Shown here: positions 10,154 to 53,950 of the stretch, piece after piece
Position numbering within the stretch: position 1 is the stretch's first letter
Layout of the letters: every line of letters starts with the position of its first letter
Assembly (NCBI GenBank): GCA_019873625.1
Contig: JAIOAW010000001.1
Coordinates: 62,001-126,000 of the forward strand
Reading direction: 5' to 3'
Origin: Chloroflexota bacterium
GTDB taxonomy: Bacteria; Chloroflexota; Anaerolineae; UBA1429
Length of the DNA stretch: 64,000 nt
Made by a program: the position numbers and the translations under genes
The notes under the pieces: generated by a model
Told to the model about the DNA's origin: nothing
The model's database searches: none
Seen by the model: only the letters and a program-made list of their open reading frames with translations

Positions 10154-10176
10154 ATATAGCAAACCGCATACGTGCC

Positions 10177-10268
10177 TTGCTGGGGGAGCCCGCGGACGGG
10201 CTGAGAGGATGGGTGCAGCCCATCGACCCCTGGAACCTGATCTGGGTCATACCAGCGTAGGGAAGCAA
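10177..10268 (+). ncRNA. TPP riboswitch (THI element)
   Basis: The conserved blocks GGGCTGAGA (10198-10206), GACCCCTGGAACCTGATCT (10225-10243) and ATACCAGCGTAGGGAA (10249-10264) are all present. The closing stem pairs TTGCT with AGCAA. The element precedes thiN and a thiamine-type ABC importer. Binding of thiamine pyrophosphate should favour the downstream terminator. Confidence 0.97.
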
Positions 10269-10281
10269 CCGTGCCTCTTAT

Positions 10282-46376: not shown

Positions 46377-46405
46377 TTGCAGTGGCTTGAGGGGCGTGGT
46401 ATACT
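46377..46405 (+). promoter_or_regulatory. Promoter of the HEAT-MutL operon
   Basis: TTGCAG (46377-46382), 17-bp spacer and TATACT (46400-46405), about 50 nt before the first gene. Confidence 0.7.
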
Positions 46406-46463
46406 GCGGCCGTTGTTCACCCCTGAGCAACGGGCGATATGAACAAAGAAGGTGGAACGCTCA

Positions 46464-47432
46464 TTGACTCTAGAACGGGATCTTGCCGCGCCCAGCGCCT
46501 TCGGAGAGGCCCCGCAAGCGATCCTCGCCCGGTGTCAAGAGGCCGCGGCGCTGGCCGGTAAAGCCCAACGCGAAGCGGTTTGGCAACTTTTGGAGATGTT
46601 GGGCGACCCGCATCCCCTCGTGCGTTGGGAAGCCTGCCGAGCCCTGGCCGTAACGGCAGGGCTGTATTCCGAGAGGCCGCGCCTGGGCACATCGCTTGCC
46701 GTCAGGCCTGCGAAGACGGTCAGTTTTTCGGAATTGCTGGGGGCTGTGGCCGCCAAATTGCACAGCCCGGAGCCTTTTGTGCGCGCCGCGGCGGCGGAGG
46801 CCCTGGGCCTCTGGCGGCAGACGCGCGTTATGGGGATGTTGACGGAAGCCCTCCACGATGAGGACGCCACCGTGCGCTCAAGCGCGGCCACGGCCCTGGG
46901 GCATATCGGAGACCAAGAGGCGCTCAAACCACTGATCGTCGCCCTAAAAGATCCCTCGTTGTGGGTGAGGCGGGCCGCCGCGGAGGCCCTAGGGCGCATC
47001 GGCGATGCGCAGGCCGTGAGCGCCCTGTGCGCCTTGCTTCAGGGCGAGCCGCCTTTGGTGCGCGCGGCTGCGGCGGCCGCCTTGGGGCACTTGACAACAG
47101 GCCCCGCTCGCCGGGCGCTCATCGCCTGCCTAAAAGATGAATCGCCCGAGGTGCGGTGGCAAGCCGTGCGGAGCCTGGAGCAGATAGGCGACCTCAAAGC
47201 GCTGGGGGCGCTGGAGGCCCTTGAGCACGACGAGACTCTCATCCTCGGGGAGCCGCTTGGCGTATGGGCCAAACGGGCGGCTTTGGCCATCGAGCGGCGC
47301 GAAGTGGGCCTGTGGAATGCCCTCCGCAAGGCCCTGCACGCGGCGAGCCGCCGCGTACGCGAGGCGTGGGCGCGCCGCCGAACGCCCAAAGAGGGAGAGG
47401 GGCGCGAAGCCCTATTGGGAGAGAGCGAATGA
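46464..47432 (+). CDS. HEAT-repeat (PBS lyase-type) protein
   Basis: First gene of the eight-gene operon. The 322 residues contain at least five helical repeats of the type DPSLWVRRAAAEALGRIGDAQA spaced about 31 residues apart, the PBS-lyase-HEAT pattern used for protein-protein contact. A basic tail (RRVREAWARRRTP) follows. TTG 46464 is preferred, with AAGAAGG at 12-nt distance; a GTG four codons earlier overlaps that site. It probably acts as a scaffold for the membrane proteins that follow. No enzymatic motif. Confidence 0.8.
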   Translation: MTLERDLAAPSAFGEAPQAILARCQEAAALAGKAQREAVWQLLEMLGDPHPLVRWEACRALAVTAGLYSERPRLGTSLAVRPAKTVSFSELLGAVAAKLHSPEPFVRAAAAEALGLWRQTRVMGMLTEALHDEDATVRSSAATALGHIGDQEALKPLIVALKDPSLWVRRAAAEALGRIGDAQAVSALCALLQGEPPLVRAAAAAALGHLTTGPARRALIACLKDESPEVRWQAVRSLEQIGDLKALGALEALEHDETLILGEPLGVWAKRAALAIERREVGLWNALRKALHAASRRVREAWARRRTPKEGEGREALLGESE

Positions 47433-47716
47433 AAGCCCAAGAAGCGCTGAGCGCCGAGGAGGCAGGGCGAATTTCCGAGGTGGCCCGCGAGGTGGCGGCA
47501 CGGGGTTTGGCGGTGCCGGCTATCGTGGCGTTGGAACTGCTCAAACCGTGGAGTTTCGTCGGGGGCCAATTGATGTGGCTCGCCGAACCTTTTTTGGGGC
47601 CGCGCGCGCGGCGTTACGCCGCCTTTTTGGAGGATCGCCGGCGCCTTGAGGCCTTGCTCAAGGCCCTCGCCTCACCCTCACAGGCGGGGGAAGGCGAAAG
47701 GGGAAATCGGCTATGA
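47429..47716 (+). CDS. Small protein of unknown function
   Basis: A 95-residue protein joined to both neighbours by ATGA overlaps. One possible amphipathic or membrane-associated stretch (GLAVPAIVALELLKPWSFVGGQLMWLAEPFLG) is followed by a charged helix. The C-terminal ~12 residues (PSQAGEGERGN) are encoded by a GC-rich tract that looks like a fragment of a dispersed repeat. No family recognised. Confidence 0.7.
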   Translation: MKAQEALSAEEAGRISEVAREVAARGLAVPAIVALELLKPWSFVGGQLMWLAEPFLGPRARRYAAFLEDRRRLEALLKALASPSQAGEGERGNRL

Positions 47717-48480
47717 TCCAAGCCTTGGGCCTTGGGAGCGACGTGTTAGCCGTCTTGGCGATGCTCCTCGCCGTGGCGGGCATTTTGGCCTTTTTGACCC
47801 TGCGCTATGCAGCCCGCCCTTCGGCGCCGCTGCGCCGCATCGAGGCCTGGGAGCGCCTTAAAGAATTGGCCAACAGGGCCGCCGAGACGGCGCAGCCTAT
47901 CCACGTGGCCTTGGGTGCGGGGCCTTGGGAGGGCCTGCCCATCGCCGAGGCGCTGATGGGTTGGGTAGCCCTGGGCTACGTCGCCCGGCGCGCCGCTGCC
48001 TGCGCCCAAGAGGCCCTCGTTACGGCGGGAGATGGCGTCCTTTGGGCCGGGGCGCAAGGCATCTTGAACGAGGCGCGCCGCCAAGCGGGGATCATCGTGC
48101 CCACGGCCCTGCCGGAAGTGCGCTTCTCCGGCCCAGACCCCATGGCCTACGCCGTGGGCGCCGTCGAAACGGCGCGCGACCGGCCGTGCACGGCCCACCT
48201 TTTGGCAGGGCATTTCGGCCCAGAGGGGCTGTGGCTCGCCCAGGCCGCTGCTCAAACCGGGGCACCGCGTCTCGGCGGCACGGCTGACGCCCTCACGGGC
48301 GCCCTGCTGTATGCCTCGTTGGATGAGGCCGTCTTCGGCGAAGACCTCTTTGCCGCCGGCGCCTATCTGGATCAGCCCCATCACCTGGGCAGCCTGTTCA
48401 CGCAGGACCTTTTGCGTTCGGTGATCATCGTGCTCATCCTCGGCGGGACTGTTTTGGCCTCTTTGGGCCTGTGGGGGTAA
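47713..48480 (+). CDS. DUF6754-like membrane protein
   Basis: A 255-residue protein with a membrane helix at each end (about 10-32 and 232-254) and a soluble middle. The middle has HVALGAGPWEGLP and the later GGTADALTGALLYASLDEAVFGEDLFAAGAYL. This matches the DUF6754 type that I know from Chloroflexota. Operon position: third; ATGA overlap with the previous gene. The function is unknown. Confidence 0.75.
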   Translation: MIQALGLGSDVLAVLAMLLAVAGILAFLTLRYAARPSAPLRRIEAWERLKELANRAAETAQPIHVALGAGPWEGLPIAEALMGWVALGYVARRAAACAQEALVTAGDGVLWAGAQGILNEARRQAGIIVPTALPEVRFSGPDPMAYAVGAVETARDRPCTAHLLAGHFGPEGLWLAQAAAQTGAPRLGGTADALTGALLYASLDEAVFGEDLFAAGAYLDQPHHLGSLFTQDLLRSVIIVLILGGTVLASLGLWG

Positions 48481-48486
48481 GCGGGT

Positions 48487-49098
48487 GTGAAACGGATTCT
48501 CCCCATCATCTTGGCGAGCGGTTGCGGCCTTTTGGCCTTGCTCGATTACCTCATCGCCTCGCCGGGCATAGATGCCATCGGCGGGGCGTTGAGCGAGGGG
48601 GTGATCATCCTCGCCGCCTTTGCGCTGATCCTCGGCGTGCTAAACCTGGCCAGCGTGCACGGCCGCCGTTTGGCCGCCCAAGGGGAACGGCGCGTCCTTT
48701 CGGGCCTCCTGCTCGTGGCCCTGGTGGGGACCTTGGCCTTGGGCGTGGTGCCTGGGCCAGGCCAAGCCCTGGCTTGGATCTTCAATTACCTCTATATGCC
48801 CCTCCAAGCGACCCTGACGGCGCTCCTGGCCTTCTTTTTGATGATCGCCGTGTACCGCGCCTTTCGCCTGAAAAATAGCGATGCGGCCATCCTGCTGGGG
48901 GTGAGCCTTTTCCTCTTTTTGGCCCAACTGCCGCTCAGCGGGGCCATCTCGCCGTATCTCCCCGCCCTGGGAGAGTGGCTTTTGGCCGTGCCCGTTACGG
49001 CAGGGATGCGCGGCTTGCTCTTGGGGGTAGCCTTGGGCACGATGGTGACGGCCCTGCGCGTTTTGCTCGCCATTGACCAACCGTTTCGCGGAGAGTAG
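48487..49098 (+). CDS. Multi-pass membrane protein, unknown
   Basis: 203 residues with six or so membrane helices and short loops; no catalytic motif. A GTG start at 48487 lies 6 nt after the DUF6754-like gene. It is co-transcribed. No family recognised with certainty. Confidence 0.75.
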   Translation: MKRILPIILASGCGLLALLDYLIASPGIDAIGGALSEGVIILAAFALILGVLNLASVHGRRLAAQGERRVLSGLLLVALVGTLALGVVPGPGQALAWIFNYLYMPLQATLTALLAFFLMIAVYRAFRLKNSDAAILLGVSLFLFLAQLPLSGAISPYLPALGEWLLAVPVTAGMRGLLLGVALGTMVTALRVLLAIDQPFRGE

Positions 49099-49113
49099 GA
49101 GCGTTCAACGCCG

Positions 49114-50427
49114 ATGATCGTTTGCCCGGCCTGTGGACATCATAATGCCGAAGGCCGAACGCGCTGCGAAATTTGCGGCGCCTCGCTTGAGCATTTTCTA
49201 TACCGCGTTTGCCCCGCCTGCGGCGCCTTGAACGCGGCCGACCGCACGTTTTGCCTGCGCTGTTTGACGAACCTCCTCCAAGCCGAGGAGGAAGATATCG
49301 CCCAAGGCCAGGCCATTGCGGGGGGGCCTACCGCGCCCCCGCCCCCGGCAGAAAGCGCTCCGCCTGTCGAAGCGCCCCTGCCCCCAGCGCAGGCCCCCTC
49401 TTCTTCTCTCCCCGCCACGTGGGAAGAGACGCTCTCCGCCCTTTCTGACCTATTGCCAGCGGGCGCAGCCCAGGCCCTCGCGGGCCGCAAAGGCGCGCCC
49501 CCTCCGCCAATGCCCTCCGAAGAGGAGCGCGCCGAGGCCGCGCTCTTTCAGCGCGTGGCCAAGGAGGGCACCACAGGGCGCGTGCCGCCGATTTCACCCG
49601 CGCCCTCCGCCGTGCCGGATATCCTCGCCAAGGGGAGGGTGCTCTTTGCCCTGCTCCTCATCGCGGCGGCCTTGGTGCCCTTGTGGTTCGCCCCATGGGG
49701 CGAAGGGCGTTTGGCCCCCACCTCTGGGGCGCGCACCTGGCTGGAGGCGCTCGGCCCGCACGATGCGGTGCTCGTCGTCTTTGCCTATTCTCCGGCCTAT
49801 GCCGGCGAGTTGCAGCCCTTGGCCGAGGCCTTTTTACACACCCTGGCCGAACGCTCGGTGCGTTCCATCGCCATCGCCAGCCAGCCGGCCGGCGTAGGGT
49901 TGGCCAAGGAGGCCTATCGCGCCGTGGAGGAGGCCGTGCCGGCCTACGCCTACGGCGAGCGTTACGCCATCCTCGGCTACCTCCCCGGCCAAGAGGCCGG
50001 CCTAAACGCCCTCTTGCGGGGCCTAGAGCAAACCTTCGCGCGAGATGCCTTGCTCCAGCGCCCCACGGCTGAATTGCCCGCCCTGCAAGGCTTGAGCCAA
50101 GTGGCCGCCTTTCAGGGCATCCTCATCTTGAGCGATGAAGACACGCCGGTGCGCCAATGGGTGGAACAGGTGCATTCGCGCACCGGCCTTCCGCTAATCG
50201 CCGGCGTCGCCGCGCGGGCCGCGCCGCTCTTGGCGCCTTATCAGCATGCCGGGCAACTCCGCTACCTCGTGGCCGGCCCGAGCGGCCTCATCGAGATGAC
50301 CCCCGGCCAGGTTGATCGCAGGCTCGTGGCGCGCGCCAACGGCTTGGTGATCTATTTCGCCATCTGGTGCGCGGTGGCCGTCGTATCGAACATCCTTTAC
50401 TGGAGAGAGCGCCGCAGGGAGGGATAA
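49114..50427 (+). CDS. Membrane protein with N-terminal double zinc ribbon
   Basis: 437 residues. Two CxxC...CxxC zinc ribbons (Cys4/7/18/21 and Cys33/36/47/50) begin the protein. A Pro-rich linker, a membrane helix near 175-192, a soluble domain of about 200 residues (HDAVLVVFAYSPAYAGELQPLAEAF), and a final membrane helix near 410-428 follow. Possibly a bacterial cousin of membrane-assembly or regulatory proteins. The function is unknown. RBS and stop overlap the next gene by one base. Confidence 0.75.
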   Translation: MIVCPACGHHNAEGRTRCEICGASLEHFLYRVCPACGALNAADRTFCLRCLTNLLQAEEEDIAQGQAIAGGPTAPPPPAESAPPVEAPLPPAQAPSSSLPATWEETLSALSDLLPAGAAQALAGRKGAPPPPMPSEEERAEAALFQRVAKEGTTGRVPPISPAPSAVPDILAKGRVLFALLLIAAALVPLWFAPWGEGRLAPTSGARTWLEALGPHDAVLVVFAYSPAYAGELQPLAEAFLHTLAERSVRSIAIASQPAGVGLAKEAYRAVEEAVPAYAYGERYAILGYLPGQEAGLNALLRGLEQTFARDALLQRPTAELPALQGLSQVAAFQGILILSDEDTPVRQWVEQVHSRTGLPLIAGVAARAAPLLAPYQHAGQLRYLVAGPSGLIEMTPGQVDRRLVARANGLVIYFAIWCAVAVVSNILYWRERRREG

Positions 50428-51152
50428 TGCCCGCTTCGCCCGCAGGCCCGTTTGCCATCTTTGCAACGCCGGGCGCCCAGGTGGTGGGCACCTGGGTGGC
50501 TGCCTTGCTAACCCTGGCCGTATTGAGTTACCTCCTGGGCGATAACATCCTTTTTCGCCTGGCTGAACACCTCCTGGTAGGGGTCGCCGCGGGCTACGCC
50601 GTGGCCGTGGCCTGGCGCGATGTGCTTTGGCCGCGCCTGGTTACCCTGTGGCAAGACCCCCTCGGCCACTGGTATGATGGCCTTTTCTTCCTCCTCGGCC
50701 TGATGCTCTTGGGGCGCGGCGTGCGCCGCCTTTCGAGCCTGGGGAATATCCCCCTGGCCATCCTCGTGGGGGCTGGCGCGGGGTTCGCCCTGGGGGGCGC
50801 TTTCTTGGGCACGCTCCTCCCCCAGGTGCGCGATACGATCGCCCCCATAACGCCCCAGCCGTACGGCGGGGGATGGAGCGGCTGGGCGCGCGCTGTGGAT
50901 GCGATTTTGCTCATCCTGGGCACCGTCGCGGCGCTTACCTTCTTTACCTATCATCGCGAGGCCCAGGGCAAGGGTGGGCGCTTCAGCCAGGGGGTAATCC
51001 GCTTTTGGGGGAGCGCAGGGCGCAAGGTTATGATGGTGGCCTTTGGGGCCTTGCTGGCGGGCGCAGCGGCAACCTTTTTCGCACTCTTGCAGAGCCGCCT
51101 CTTTTTCCTCATCTATGATTGGCTGTCTCTCCTCGGCGTTAGGGGGCCGTAA
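50427..51152 (+). CDS. Multi-pass membrane protein, unknown
   Basis: 241 residues, six or so membrane helices, with a GRGVRRLSSLGNIPLAILVGAGAGFALGGAF segment. ATG 50427 overlaps the previous stop by one base. Together with the three other membrane proteins it suggests a membrane complex. No known family recognised. Confidence 0.75.
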   Translation: MPASPAGPFAIFATPGAQVVGTWVAALLTLAVLSYLLGDNILFRLAEHLLVGVAAGYAVAVAWRDVLWPRLVTLWQDPLGHWYDGLFFLLGLMLLGRGVRRLSSLGNIPLAILVGAGAGFALGGAFLGTLLPQVRDTIAPITPQPYGGGWSGWARAVDAILLILGTVAALTFFTYHREAQGKGGRFSQGVIRFWGSAGRKVMMVAFGALLAGAAATFFALLQSRLFFLIYDWLSLLGVRGP

Positions 51153-51155
51153 GCG

Positions 51156-52898
51156 ATGAGCGCAGGAACGGCCATCGAATCTATCCTTGCGGTGGATGTG
51201 GGGAGCACGTTTACCCACGCCTGCCTGTTAGATCGCGTCGAGGGCGTGTACCGCCTGGTGGCCACGGTGGAGGTTCCCACAACCCTGGGCGGCCCCCAGG
51301 ATGACCTTTCGCTGGGCGTGCAGCAGGCCCTCGCCGAGTTGGAACCGATCATCCAGCGGCGCCTCCTGGATGATGCCCAAGAGGTCATCCTCCCCGAGCG
51401 CCCTTCCGGCGAGGGGGTGGATGCCTTTCTGGCCACCTGCAGCGCGGCCTCGCCTTTGCGCTGCGCGCTCCTCGGCTTGACGGATGATTTGAGCCTTCAC
51501 AGCGCGCGGCGCGCCTGTTCCGCGGCGCATACCGTCATCATCCAAGAGGTGGCGCTGGGCGGAACTCCCCGTTCGGAGCGGCACCGCGCCCTTGCCGCAC
51601 TCCGCAGGGCGTCGCTCGACGTCCTCCTGATGGTAGGCGGGGTAGATAGCGGGCCGACGGCCCTATTGGAGGGCACGGCGCGCTTCCTTGCGGCCCTTTA
51701 TGCCGGCCTGCCTCAGGCGAAGCGGCCCGTCCTCCTCTTTGCGGGGAACCAAGAGGCGCGCCGGTCCATCGCCGAAAGCGTGCGCGGCGTGCTCGATTAC
51801 CGCGTGGTCGAAAATGTGCGCCCCGCACTTCACGTAGAAAACCTCGCCGAACTTGGCCAAGAGTTGGCGCTCCTCTATCAAGAGAAAAAACTGTTCACCC
51901 TGCCCGGCTATGAGCGCTTGGGGCGGTGGAGCACTGCCCCCATTATGGCCACGCATGAGGCCCTCAGCGCGATGCTCCAATTCGTGGCCCAACAGCGCCG
52001 CCTTCCCCAGGGCATTTTGTGCCTGGACGTGGGGGGCAACAATACCTTGCTCCTGGCCAGCCGCGAGGGGGCCTTGCATCGCGCGGTAGGCGCTCATCTG
52101 GGCACGGCCCAAGGGAGCCGCCGCCTCGTCGAACTGGGGGGCATCGCCGATATCCGCCAATGGTTGCCCATAGCGCTTTCCGCCGAAGAGGCCTATGCCT
52201 ACCTAGAGAACGCCTCGTTGCGGCCGCACGGGGTTCCACAAACGCCGGAGGATCTCTACCTCACTTATGCCGTGGTGCGCCAAGCCGTTCGCCTTCACCT
52301 GGAGGCCCTGCGGCGCGGTTGGCCGGACGAAGGGACCTCTCCTATGGTTTTTGACGTCATCGCCGGGCGCGGCGGCGCCCTGGCCCACGCCCCCCAAGAG
52401 GGGCTGGCCGCCCTAACCCTGCTCGACGCCGCCCAGCCTGTGGGGCTGGCGCGCTTGGTGCTCGATTGGGCCTCGATGTGGCCCCAACTGGGGGCGGTGG
52501 CTCGCGTGGCGCCCTTGGCAGCCACCCAGGTATTGGAACGGGATGGCTTTTGCGAACTAGGCGTGGCGCTCTCCCCCATCGGGAATGTGCCCGAGGGCAC
52601 CCCGGCGCTCGAGATCACGCTTCGCTATGAGGATGGGCGAGTTACCGAGGCCACTGTGCCGGCCGGCGCCATCGCACGCTTCCCTCTGGGCGCGCAAGAA
52701 CGCGCCACGCTGGAGGTTCGCCCCCACCGCGATCTCGACATCGGCCTGGGCCGCCCTGGCCAAGGGGGGCGCACAGAAATCCGGGGGGGGCGGCTGGGCC
52801 TCCTCGTAGATGCGCGGGGCCGTCCGCTCCGCCTGCCCGAGGATGCCGAGGCGCGTCGCCAAAAGATCGCCGCTTGGCTGAGGAGCCTGTGCTTATGA
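51156..52898 (+). CDS. MutL/GlmL-family ASKHA ATPase (orphan)
   Basis: 580-residue protein of the glutamate mutase accessory MutL/GlmL family (actin-like ATPases). Phosphate 1 is VDVGST (13-18), a GGVDSGPTALL segment lies at 161-171, phosphate 2 is LDVGGNNTLL (290-299), and an adenosine-type AGRGGALAH follows near 415. The C-terminal ~110 residues are an additional beta-rich extension compared with clostridial GlmL (about 460 aa). No glutamate mutase (mutS/mutE) or any B12 mutase is present. The nucleotide-cycling role is inferred from family; its client is unknown. Confidence 0.82.
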   Translation: MSAGTAIESILAVDVGSTFTHACLLDRVEGVYRLVATVEVPTTLGGPQDDLSLGVQQALAELEPIIQRRLLDDAQEVILPERPSGEGVDAFLATCSAASPLRCALLGLTDDLSLHSARRACSAAHTVIIQEVALGGTPRSERHRALAALRRASLDVLLMVGGVDSGPTALLEGTARFLAALYAGLPQAKRPVLLFAGNQEARRSIAESVRGVLDYRVVENVRPALHVENLAELGQELALLYQEKKLFTLPGYERLGRWSTAPIMATHEALSAMLQFVAQQRRLPQGILCLDVGGNNTLLLASREGALHRAVGAHLGTAQGSRRLVELGGIADIRQWLPIALSAEEAYAYLENASLRPHGVPQTPEDLYLTYAVVRQAVRLHLEALRRGWPDEGTSPMVFDVIAGRGGALAHAPQEGLAALTLLDAAQPVGLARLVLDWASMWPQLGAVARVAPLAATQVLERDGFCELGVALSPIGNVPEGTPALEITLRYEDGRVTEATVPAGAIARFPLGAQERATLEVRPHRDLDIGLGRPGQGGRTEIRGGRLGLLVDARGRPLRLPEDAEARRQKIAAWLRSLCL

Positions 52899-53950
52899 TG
52901 CCCTATGAGGCCCGCTTTTCACCCTTGACCCAGATCGTGCGCCGCCACCTGCTCCCCGAGCCTGGGCGAGTGCTCGTGCAGGTGGGAGATCGTGTCCAGC
53001 CCGATGACGTCATCGCCGAAGCGATCCTCCCTGGCGAGGTGGCCCTTTTCGATTTGGCCGAGGCCCTCGGCGTGGACGCCCTTTCGGCGGGGCGCGCCCT
53101 GCGCGTGCGCCCAGGGCAAGAGGTGCCACCTCAAGGCCTCTTGGCCAGCCGGCGGCGATTTCTCTGGCTCAAGCGAGAGGTGCGCGCCCCAGCGGCGGGG
53201 GTGGTCCGCGGGGTGTATGAGGGGAGCCTCCTCTTTGAGGCCAAAGAGCGCCTTTTGCGCCTGCGGGCTTATTTGCCGGGGGAGATCATCGAGATATACC
53301 CCGAGCGAGGGGCGGCCGTCCGCGCAACGGGCGCTTTGGCTTACGGCGCTTGGGGCCACGGCGGCGAGGGCCGGGGGAGGCTCGTTCTCGCCGTCGAGGA
53401 GCCATCTCAACCCCTAGGGTGGCCCAACGTGCGCCTGGCGCATCGCGGCGCCATCCTCGTGGGCGGCACCCTCAACGACCACCGCGCGATCTTTCGGGCC
53501 AAGCAGTTCCGCGTGGCCGGCTTGGTGGTGGGGAGCATCCACCCCAACCTGCGGCCCCTATGCGAACGCCTGCCCCTCCCCATCCTCGTAACCGAGGGCA
53601 TCGGCTCGGCGCCTATGATGACGGCGCTCTTCGAATGCCTCCAACGCTGCGAAGGGCGCTGGGCATTCCTAGCGGGGCGCGCGCCCGGCCCTTATGGGCA
53701 CCCTGAACTCGTCATCCCGCTCTCGGCCCCCGTCGAAAGCACGGCCTTGACCGTGCCGCGCCCCCTCCAAGAGGGCCTCCTCGTGCGGCTCACGCGGCCC
53801 CCCTACCTGGGCCTCGTCGGCCGGGTGGTCAGTTTGCCCTCGGCCCCTCAAAAGACAGCCATCGGCACCTGGGCCAAAGGGGCCTATGTGCGCCTGAGCG
53901 ATGGCGAGACGCTCTTTGTGCCCCTGACGAACCTCGAGGTCATCGGCTAG
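52895..53950 (+). CDS. Barrel-sandwich-hybrid protein of the MutL operon
   Basis: 351 residues, all soluble, no helix-rich membrane segments. VQVGDRVQPDDVIAEAILPG and VRAPAAGVVRGVYEGSLLF resemble lipoyl/barrel-sandwich hybrid halves. The C-terminal LVGRVVSLPSAP...AYVRLSDGETLFVPLTNLEVIG resembles a KOW/SH3-like barrel. No lipoylation Lys is evident. ATG 52895 overlaps the MutL stop (ATGA) and the last four bases overlap the convergent hydrolase gene. It was presumably co-translated with MutL and may be its partner. Confidence 0.7.
   Translation: MMPYEARFSPLTQIVRRHLLPEPGRVLVQVGDRVQPDDVIAEAILPGEVALFDLAEALGVDALSAGRALRVRPGQEVPPQGLLASRRRFLWLKREVRAPAAGVVRGVYEGSLLFEAKERLLRLRAYLPGEIIEIYPERGAAVRATGALAYGAWGHGGEGRGRLVLAVEEPSQPLGWPNVRLAHRGAILVGGTLNDHRAIFRAKQFRVAGLVVGSIHPNLRPLCERLPLPILVTEGIGSAPMMTALFECLQRCEGRWAFLAGRAPGPYGHPELVIPLSAPVESTALTVPRPLQEGLLVRLTRPPYLGLVGRVVSLPSAPQKTAIGTWAKGAYVRLSDGETLFVPLTNLEVIG

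Follow-up and report, generated by a model that had tools for sequence, protein, structure and literature searches.

What does a MutL/GlmL-family ATPase do when it is encoded among membrane proteins instead of beside a mutase? GlmL, or MutL, is the accessory ATPase of AdoCbl-dependent mutases, and the question is raised by eight densely packed genes, all on the + strand, at 46452-53950 of the window (the whole 64,000 nt stretch of Chloroflexota DNA that we analysed), which include one ATPase of this family. The initial annotation took them for an undescribed membrane machine built on a repurposed mutase chaperone, and we asked how far this reading is borne out by the proteins themselves, by the wider distribution of the genes, and by the absence or presence of mutases.

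Organisation of the eight-gene locus

The genes run 5' to 3' in the order HEAT, s, D, 1, Z, 2, M and K. The first (46452..47432, +, starting at either the GTG at 46452 or the TTG at 46464) encodes a HEAT-repeat protein (HEAT_2, 2e-50) and shares an ATGA overlap (47429-47432) with s (47429..47716, +), a small amphipathic protein and core member which is kept with the operon in all phyla examined. This overlaps by 4 nt with D (47713..48480, +), a DUF6754 protein (Pfam 6e-24) with a Rossmann-like domain between two TM helices, which is followed after 6 nt by 1 (48487..49098, +), a six-TM membrane protein, and after a further 15 nt by Z (49114..50427, +; Pfam 9e-8), where a double zinc ribbon, a linker and a TM precede an alpha/beta core (49741-50286) and another TM. 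Z overlaps by 1 nt (TAATG) with 2 (50427..51152, +), a polytopic membrane protein with six to seven TM helices, and a 3 nt gap separates this from M (51156..52898, +), the MutL/GlmL-family ASKHA ATPase (MutL Pfam 1e-60). M in turn shares an ATGA overlap (52895-52898) with K (52895..53950, +), a soluble protein. The gene order and tight coupling described earlier are thus correct, with every overlap or gap being 15 nt or less, and it should be noted that a Pfam search of the eight proteins found no confident family for s, 1, 2 or K.

The locus is flanked by a divergent UvrD/PcrA-type helicase gene on the 5' side and a convergent hydrolase-like gene on the 3' side (both read from the sequence). 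A putative sigma-70-type promoter with an extended -10 can be read upstream of HEAT (TTGCAG, 17 nt, TGGTATACT; 46377..46405, +), and a single promoter for the whole operon, as was originally claimed, is plausible on the strength of this site, although it scores under the threshold of a stricter consensus scan.

M is distinct from the B12-mutase chaperones

M matches PF13941 over almost the entire profile (positions 1-448 of 450; 1.2e-60, 206 bits), and its nucleotide-site residues are retained in a set of 47 sequences (a near-invariant D/G/T near the N-terminus, GG at 161-162 and D291/G293). The phosphate-1, phosphate-2 and adenosine motifs of the ASKHA superfamily, which we assigned by inspection, are all found in M. 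While M shares the full-length ASKHA domain and these residues with the GlmL/MutL proteins (PF13941; NF040745, NF040744, TIGR01319), it scores far below the cut-offs of the curated NCBIfam models, with 76.2 bits against 475 for GlmL, 59.8 against 600 for Or-4, and 47.9 against 204 for the GlmL family. M also differs in having a C-terminal extension of about 110 residues (approximately residues 463-580), which had been noticed at the outset and proves to be conserved among the operon MutLs; it carries a D.RGRP-type motif and has a weak match to an uncharacterised protein (E 0.0035). In an unrooted tree of 37 MutLs, the 30 operon MutLs from all phyla formed one clade (100/100 support) and the seven mutase-linked or fused MutLs fell outside it.

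The claim that this MutL has no mutase partner was upheld both in the neighbourhood and in the assembly, which is 97.6% complete and has no match to PF06368 (glutamate mutase E) or PF01642 (methylmalonyl-CoA mutase); the B12-binding matches that it does contain read, on inspection of their sequences, as a corrinoid protein of the methyltransferase type and radical-SAM proteins of the B12 type. We then compared 60 kin genomes picked by kinship alone and not by gene content, so that counts made among them are not circular. PF06368 was clearly present in one of these and the operon MutL in 40, and the suggested check on co-occurrence therefore shows that MutL and glutamate mutase are not tied. 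Where a genome does have a mutase, it also has a further MutL that is either canonical or fused, as in a relative from the same class (G053) with a true GlmE beside its own canonical GlmL, separate from the operon MutL. On the grounds of score, tree, synteny and co-occurrence we rejected M as a mutase chaperone. The idea of a repurposed chaperone survives in part: the set of ATPase and membrane genes does look like an undescribed system, but the direction of change cannot be read from an unrooted tree, and M could equally represent an older relative of the mutase chaperones.

Some of the other MutLs are of separate interest. One gene (L269:768-6121) lies near an octopine-dehydrogenase-like gene (PF02317) and a neighbour whose product has B12-binding and weak methylaspartate-mutase-E matches, and this is possibly an undescribed mutase cluster. 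Several class relatives have fused proteins with the MutL domain at the C-terminal end (L270:4233-8024 and L071-L074); that of L270 (1264 aa), which adjoins another octopine-dehydrogenase-like gene and has a sub-threshold B12-binding match at its start, reads as a putative B12-binding domain, mutase-like barrel and MutL in a single chain.

A seven-gene core is conserved in Chloroflexota

Seven of the genes (s, D, 1, Z, 2, M and K) constitute a core which excludes HEAT, and the core order s-D-1-Z-2-M-K is collinear throughout Chloroflexota. DUF6754 was found in 38 of the 60 kin genomes, and a search of the neighbourhoods of DUF6754-bearing genomes with profiles grown from the window proteins recovered the same order in the loci of the class as far as the contigs extend, with M or K on another contig in one or two cases. 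In the phylum DUF6754 is present in 67 of 301 genomes, and further classes keep the same gene order, except that K is missing from the operon end in Chloroflexia. As the order recurs in dozens of genera, the arrangement must be more than chance, and the synteny with relatives that was at issue extends far beyond the genome itself, with the core genes recurring and co-occurring in Chloroflexota and in other phyla. HEAT, which occurs in 18 class loci (in the family of this genome and in a minority of the rest), is an optional, lineage-specific accessory. The length of Z ranges from 437 to about 1450 residues, mostly through variation in the linker.

Co-occurrence gives a similar picture. Of the 60 kin genomes, 35 have all four of the markers D, K, 2 and M and 14 have none of them, so that the system is dispensable, and D, K and 2 are each associated with M (Fisher p of 1e-9 for D, 4e-11 for K and 4e-10 for gene 2, with shared ancestry ignored). 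The 11 partial genomes include several explained by contig ends or divergent copies, but two (G031 at L265 and G047 at L280) are true reductions which lack D, 1 and 2 and retain M and K together with a short zinc-ribbon TM protein, and a further two (G001 and G008) have M and membrane genes with no K detected. In these reduced sets the two modules proposed below come apart, which counts against that proposal. K had one full-length match in each of 15 genomes tested, including Chloroflexia where it lies outside the operon (one of the 15 had a second, very weak match), and when 13 genomes were picked for having M, D was found in 12 of them.

We note that the flanking genes point to no one pathway, and none is conserved beyond a ninth gene in Anaerolineae and a two-TM neighbour in Armatimonadota. 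In about 65 Chloroflexota loci (e.g. L058:2341-2922 and L123:16981-17628) the ninth gene follows K directly, and encodes a two-TM protein with a Thr/Pro-rich stretch and often an LPxTG-like motif before the last TM; it is absent from the window, and no conservation of it was found beyond Chloroflexota. In part of Chloroflexia (L239, L240, L242, L247 and L248), K lies on the upstream side of the F1Fo ATP synthase operon, separated from it by response-regulator-like genes. We considered this as a clue to energetics and dropped it, as it is confined to that part of the class.

Rearrangement and block duplication of the core beyond Chloroflexota

Searching 84,980 species genomes for the signature of the C-terminal extension of MutL gave at least 552 loci that encode relatives, and the best 80 of these included records titled Armatimonadota, Fimbriimonadales, Chthonomonas, Latescibacterota, Zipacnadia and Planctomycetota. 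In Latescibacterota, Zipacnadia and Planctomycetota the genes are found in a different order, s-M-K-D-1-Z-2, and in Armatimonadota s-D-1-Z-2 form one cluster with M and K elsewhere or as a pair. A small two-TM protein without a Pfam match is conserved upstream of s in the Armatimonadota cluster (L249-L257). DUF6754 is present in 76 of 294 genomes of the phylum of the Planctomycetota record, and 11 of the 20 DUF6754 loci that we fetched from this phylum have the full s-M-K-D-1-Z-2 set. It should be noted that the signature set, the 13 genomes chosen by M, and these DUF6754 loci were each chosen by one gene and so test the others.

Three Planctomycetota loci (L287, L297 and L298) have a tandem duplication of D-1-Z-2 beside a single s-M-K, and a fourth (L286) has the duplicated D-1-Z-2 without s-M-K in view. 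The duplication of D-1-Z-2 as a block beside one s-M-K marks out two units within the set, one probably cytosolic and the other in the membrane.

Structural features of D, Z and K

D is a member of DUF6754 by score (PF20539; 85 bits against a gathering cut-off of 27, profile positions 13-248 of 257) and is constantly accompanied by the six other core genes, and its Planctomycetota and Latescibacterota relatives match the family at e-117 to e-126. Its arrangement of TM, Rossmann-like domain and TM is seen in an AlphaFold model (pLDDT 89.9), for which no solved homologue was found by sequence and no significant match by fold in the PDB (E values were all above 0.001, with TM scores of about 0.3); RCK domains are among the non-significant likenesses. 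A profile search of the PDB with the Z core domain likewise found no match, and a shared ancestry of the D and Z domains was rejected because they have no profile similarity (hhalign probability 1.6%). The charge distribution suggests that the Rossmann-like domain of D is cytosolic and that the Z core is extracytoplasmic, and the SH3_3 domain between the core and last TM of a Z relative (L062) agrees with this outside position. Proteins 1 and 2 have many conserved helix glycines.

The barrel-sandwich call made for K was confirmed. In this protein, which was modelled with a pLDDT of 92.8, N-terminal barrel-sandwich domains and a middle alpha/beta domain, with a weak likeness to protease-associated domains, are followed by a C-terminal KOW/SH3 domain that had not been noticed earlier. 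K therefore has domain types known from NusG/SPT5 (KOW) and RnfC (barrel-sandwich), but the combination and its context are unlike either: the match to RnfC_N is only E 0.04, and K has no recognisable NGN domain and neither an Fe-S nor a flavin motif that could be recognised.

A proposed two-module envelope machine

The reading that we favour, and consider somewhat more likely than not, is that the locus encodes an ATP-driven cell-envelope machine in two modules, with s-M-K driving D-1-Z-2. The first module would be cytosolic, with M as an actin/Hsp70-fold ATPase, K as a multi-domain adaptor and s as a small amphipathic docking protein. The second would lie in the membrane, where 1 and 2 might together make up a path or a mobile core, D would present its Rossmann-like domain towards the first module, and Z would place a domain outside the membrane. 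The accepted view of GlmL-type factors is that they force a shape change in their partner by ATP binding and hydrolysis. M most likely works in the same way, but on the membrane module rather than on a B12 enzyme; s-M-K would then dock on D-1-Z-2 and drive cycles of shape change through ATP binding and hydrolysis. We infer a physical complex, ATPase activity of M, coupling of M to the membrane module, and the topology. The likeliest use of such a complex would be to move or load something across or into the envelope, a guess which we place slightly short of even. The fullest version of this proposal is more doubtful again, namely that a GlmL-type ASKHA ATPase with K powers a four-protein translocating membrane complex, that this forms an unrecognised class in at least Chloroflexota, Armatimonadota, Planctomycetota and Latescibacterota, and that the mutase chaperones are a sister branch of the ATPase family.

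PilM/GspL, FtsA and MreB are actin-fold ATPases that serve membrane machines, and the operon likewise codes for a soluble actin/Hsp70-fold ATPase with membrane proteins. Its proteins, however, have no Pfam or NCBIfam match to the pilus, type II secretion or division families, and no secretion ATPase, pilin or inner-membrane platform was found among the eight using these databases. We found no paper naming DUF6754 or dealing with the seven-gene system in a library of 5.39 million open-licence papers. A seven-gene set that is conserved across several phyla, and most of whose proteins belong to no named functional family, represents a sizeable gap in the knowledge of bacterial membranes. If M does drive the membrane module, then the MutL/GlmL ATPases would play a further role that has nothing to do with vitamin B12, and an undescribed envelope process would be powered by an actin/Hsp70-fold ATPase. 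Such a machine is directly testable, given its modular duplications and its presence in finished Planctomycetota and Chloroflexia genomes.

Alternative explanations

The best of the alternatives, which we nonetheless think unlikely, is an envelope sensor or signalling complex in which the cytosolic Rossmann-like domain of D and the outer domain of Z sense a ligand or membrane state and M-K act as an ATP-dependent switch to the cytosol, with the KOW domain of K working in a NusG/SPT5-like manner. RCK domains, to which D has its faint likeness, are ligand sensors of channels, K carries a KOW domain of transcription-factor type, and Z has zinc ribbons and, in Chloroflexota, long linkers; but the core has no recognisable DNA-binding, kinase or cyclic-nucleotide domain, and two polytopic proteins rich in conserved helix glycines point to something beyond a sensor. 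Slightly less likely still is a role in the insertion, folding or export of envelope proteins or in the assembly of a surface structure, with M as an Hsp70-fold chaperone. M is in the Hsp70/actin fold class, many Anaerolineae have the ninth gene with its often LPxTG-like tail, and secG and ftsY were seen by eye to adjoin the locus, but the latter are one case each, no client gene is conserved across phyla, and the ninth gene is limited in the way described above.

It is improbable that these are unrelated housekeeping genes left in an old shared operon. The flanks do vary and the modules can separate, as this would allow, but the genes have become linked again in two or more different orders, one module has been duplicated as a block, and the genes co-occur even when unlinked. 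An orphan B12-mutase chaperone serving a mutase encoded elsewhere is largely refuted and the least credible of all, as beside the PF13941 match stand the sub-cut-off scores of M, the separate operon clade, an assembly with neither mutase, and the second MutL of mutase-bearing genomes.

Two further possibilities were rejected. For anti-phage defence, PADLOC models gave only generic HEAT-repeat matches, and these fall on the optional HEAT gene, while a phage or plasmid origin found no meaningful PHROG match and no plasmid match for D. Elsewhere in the window, there is a TPP riboswitch at 10172-10280 (+) (Rfam RF00059, 79 bits).
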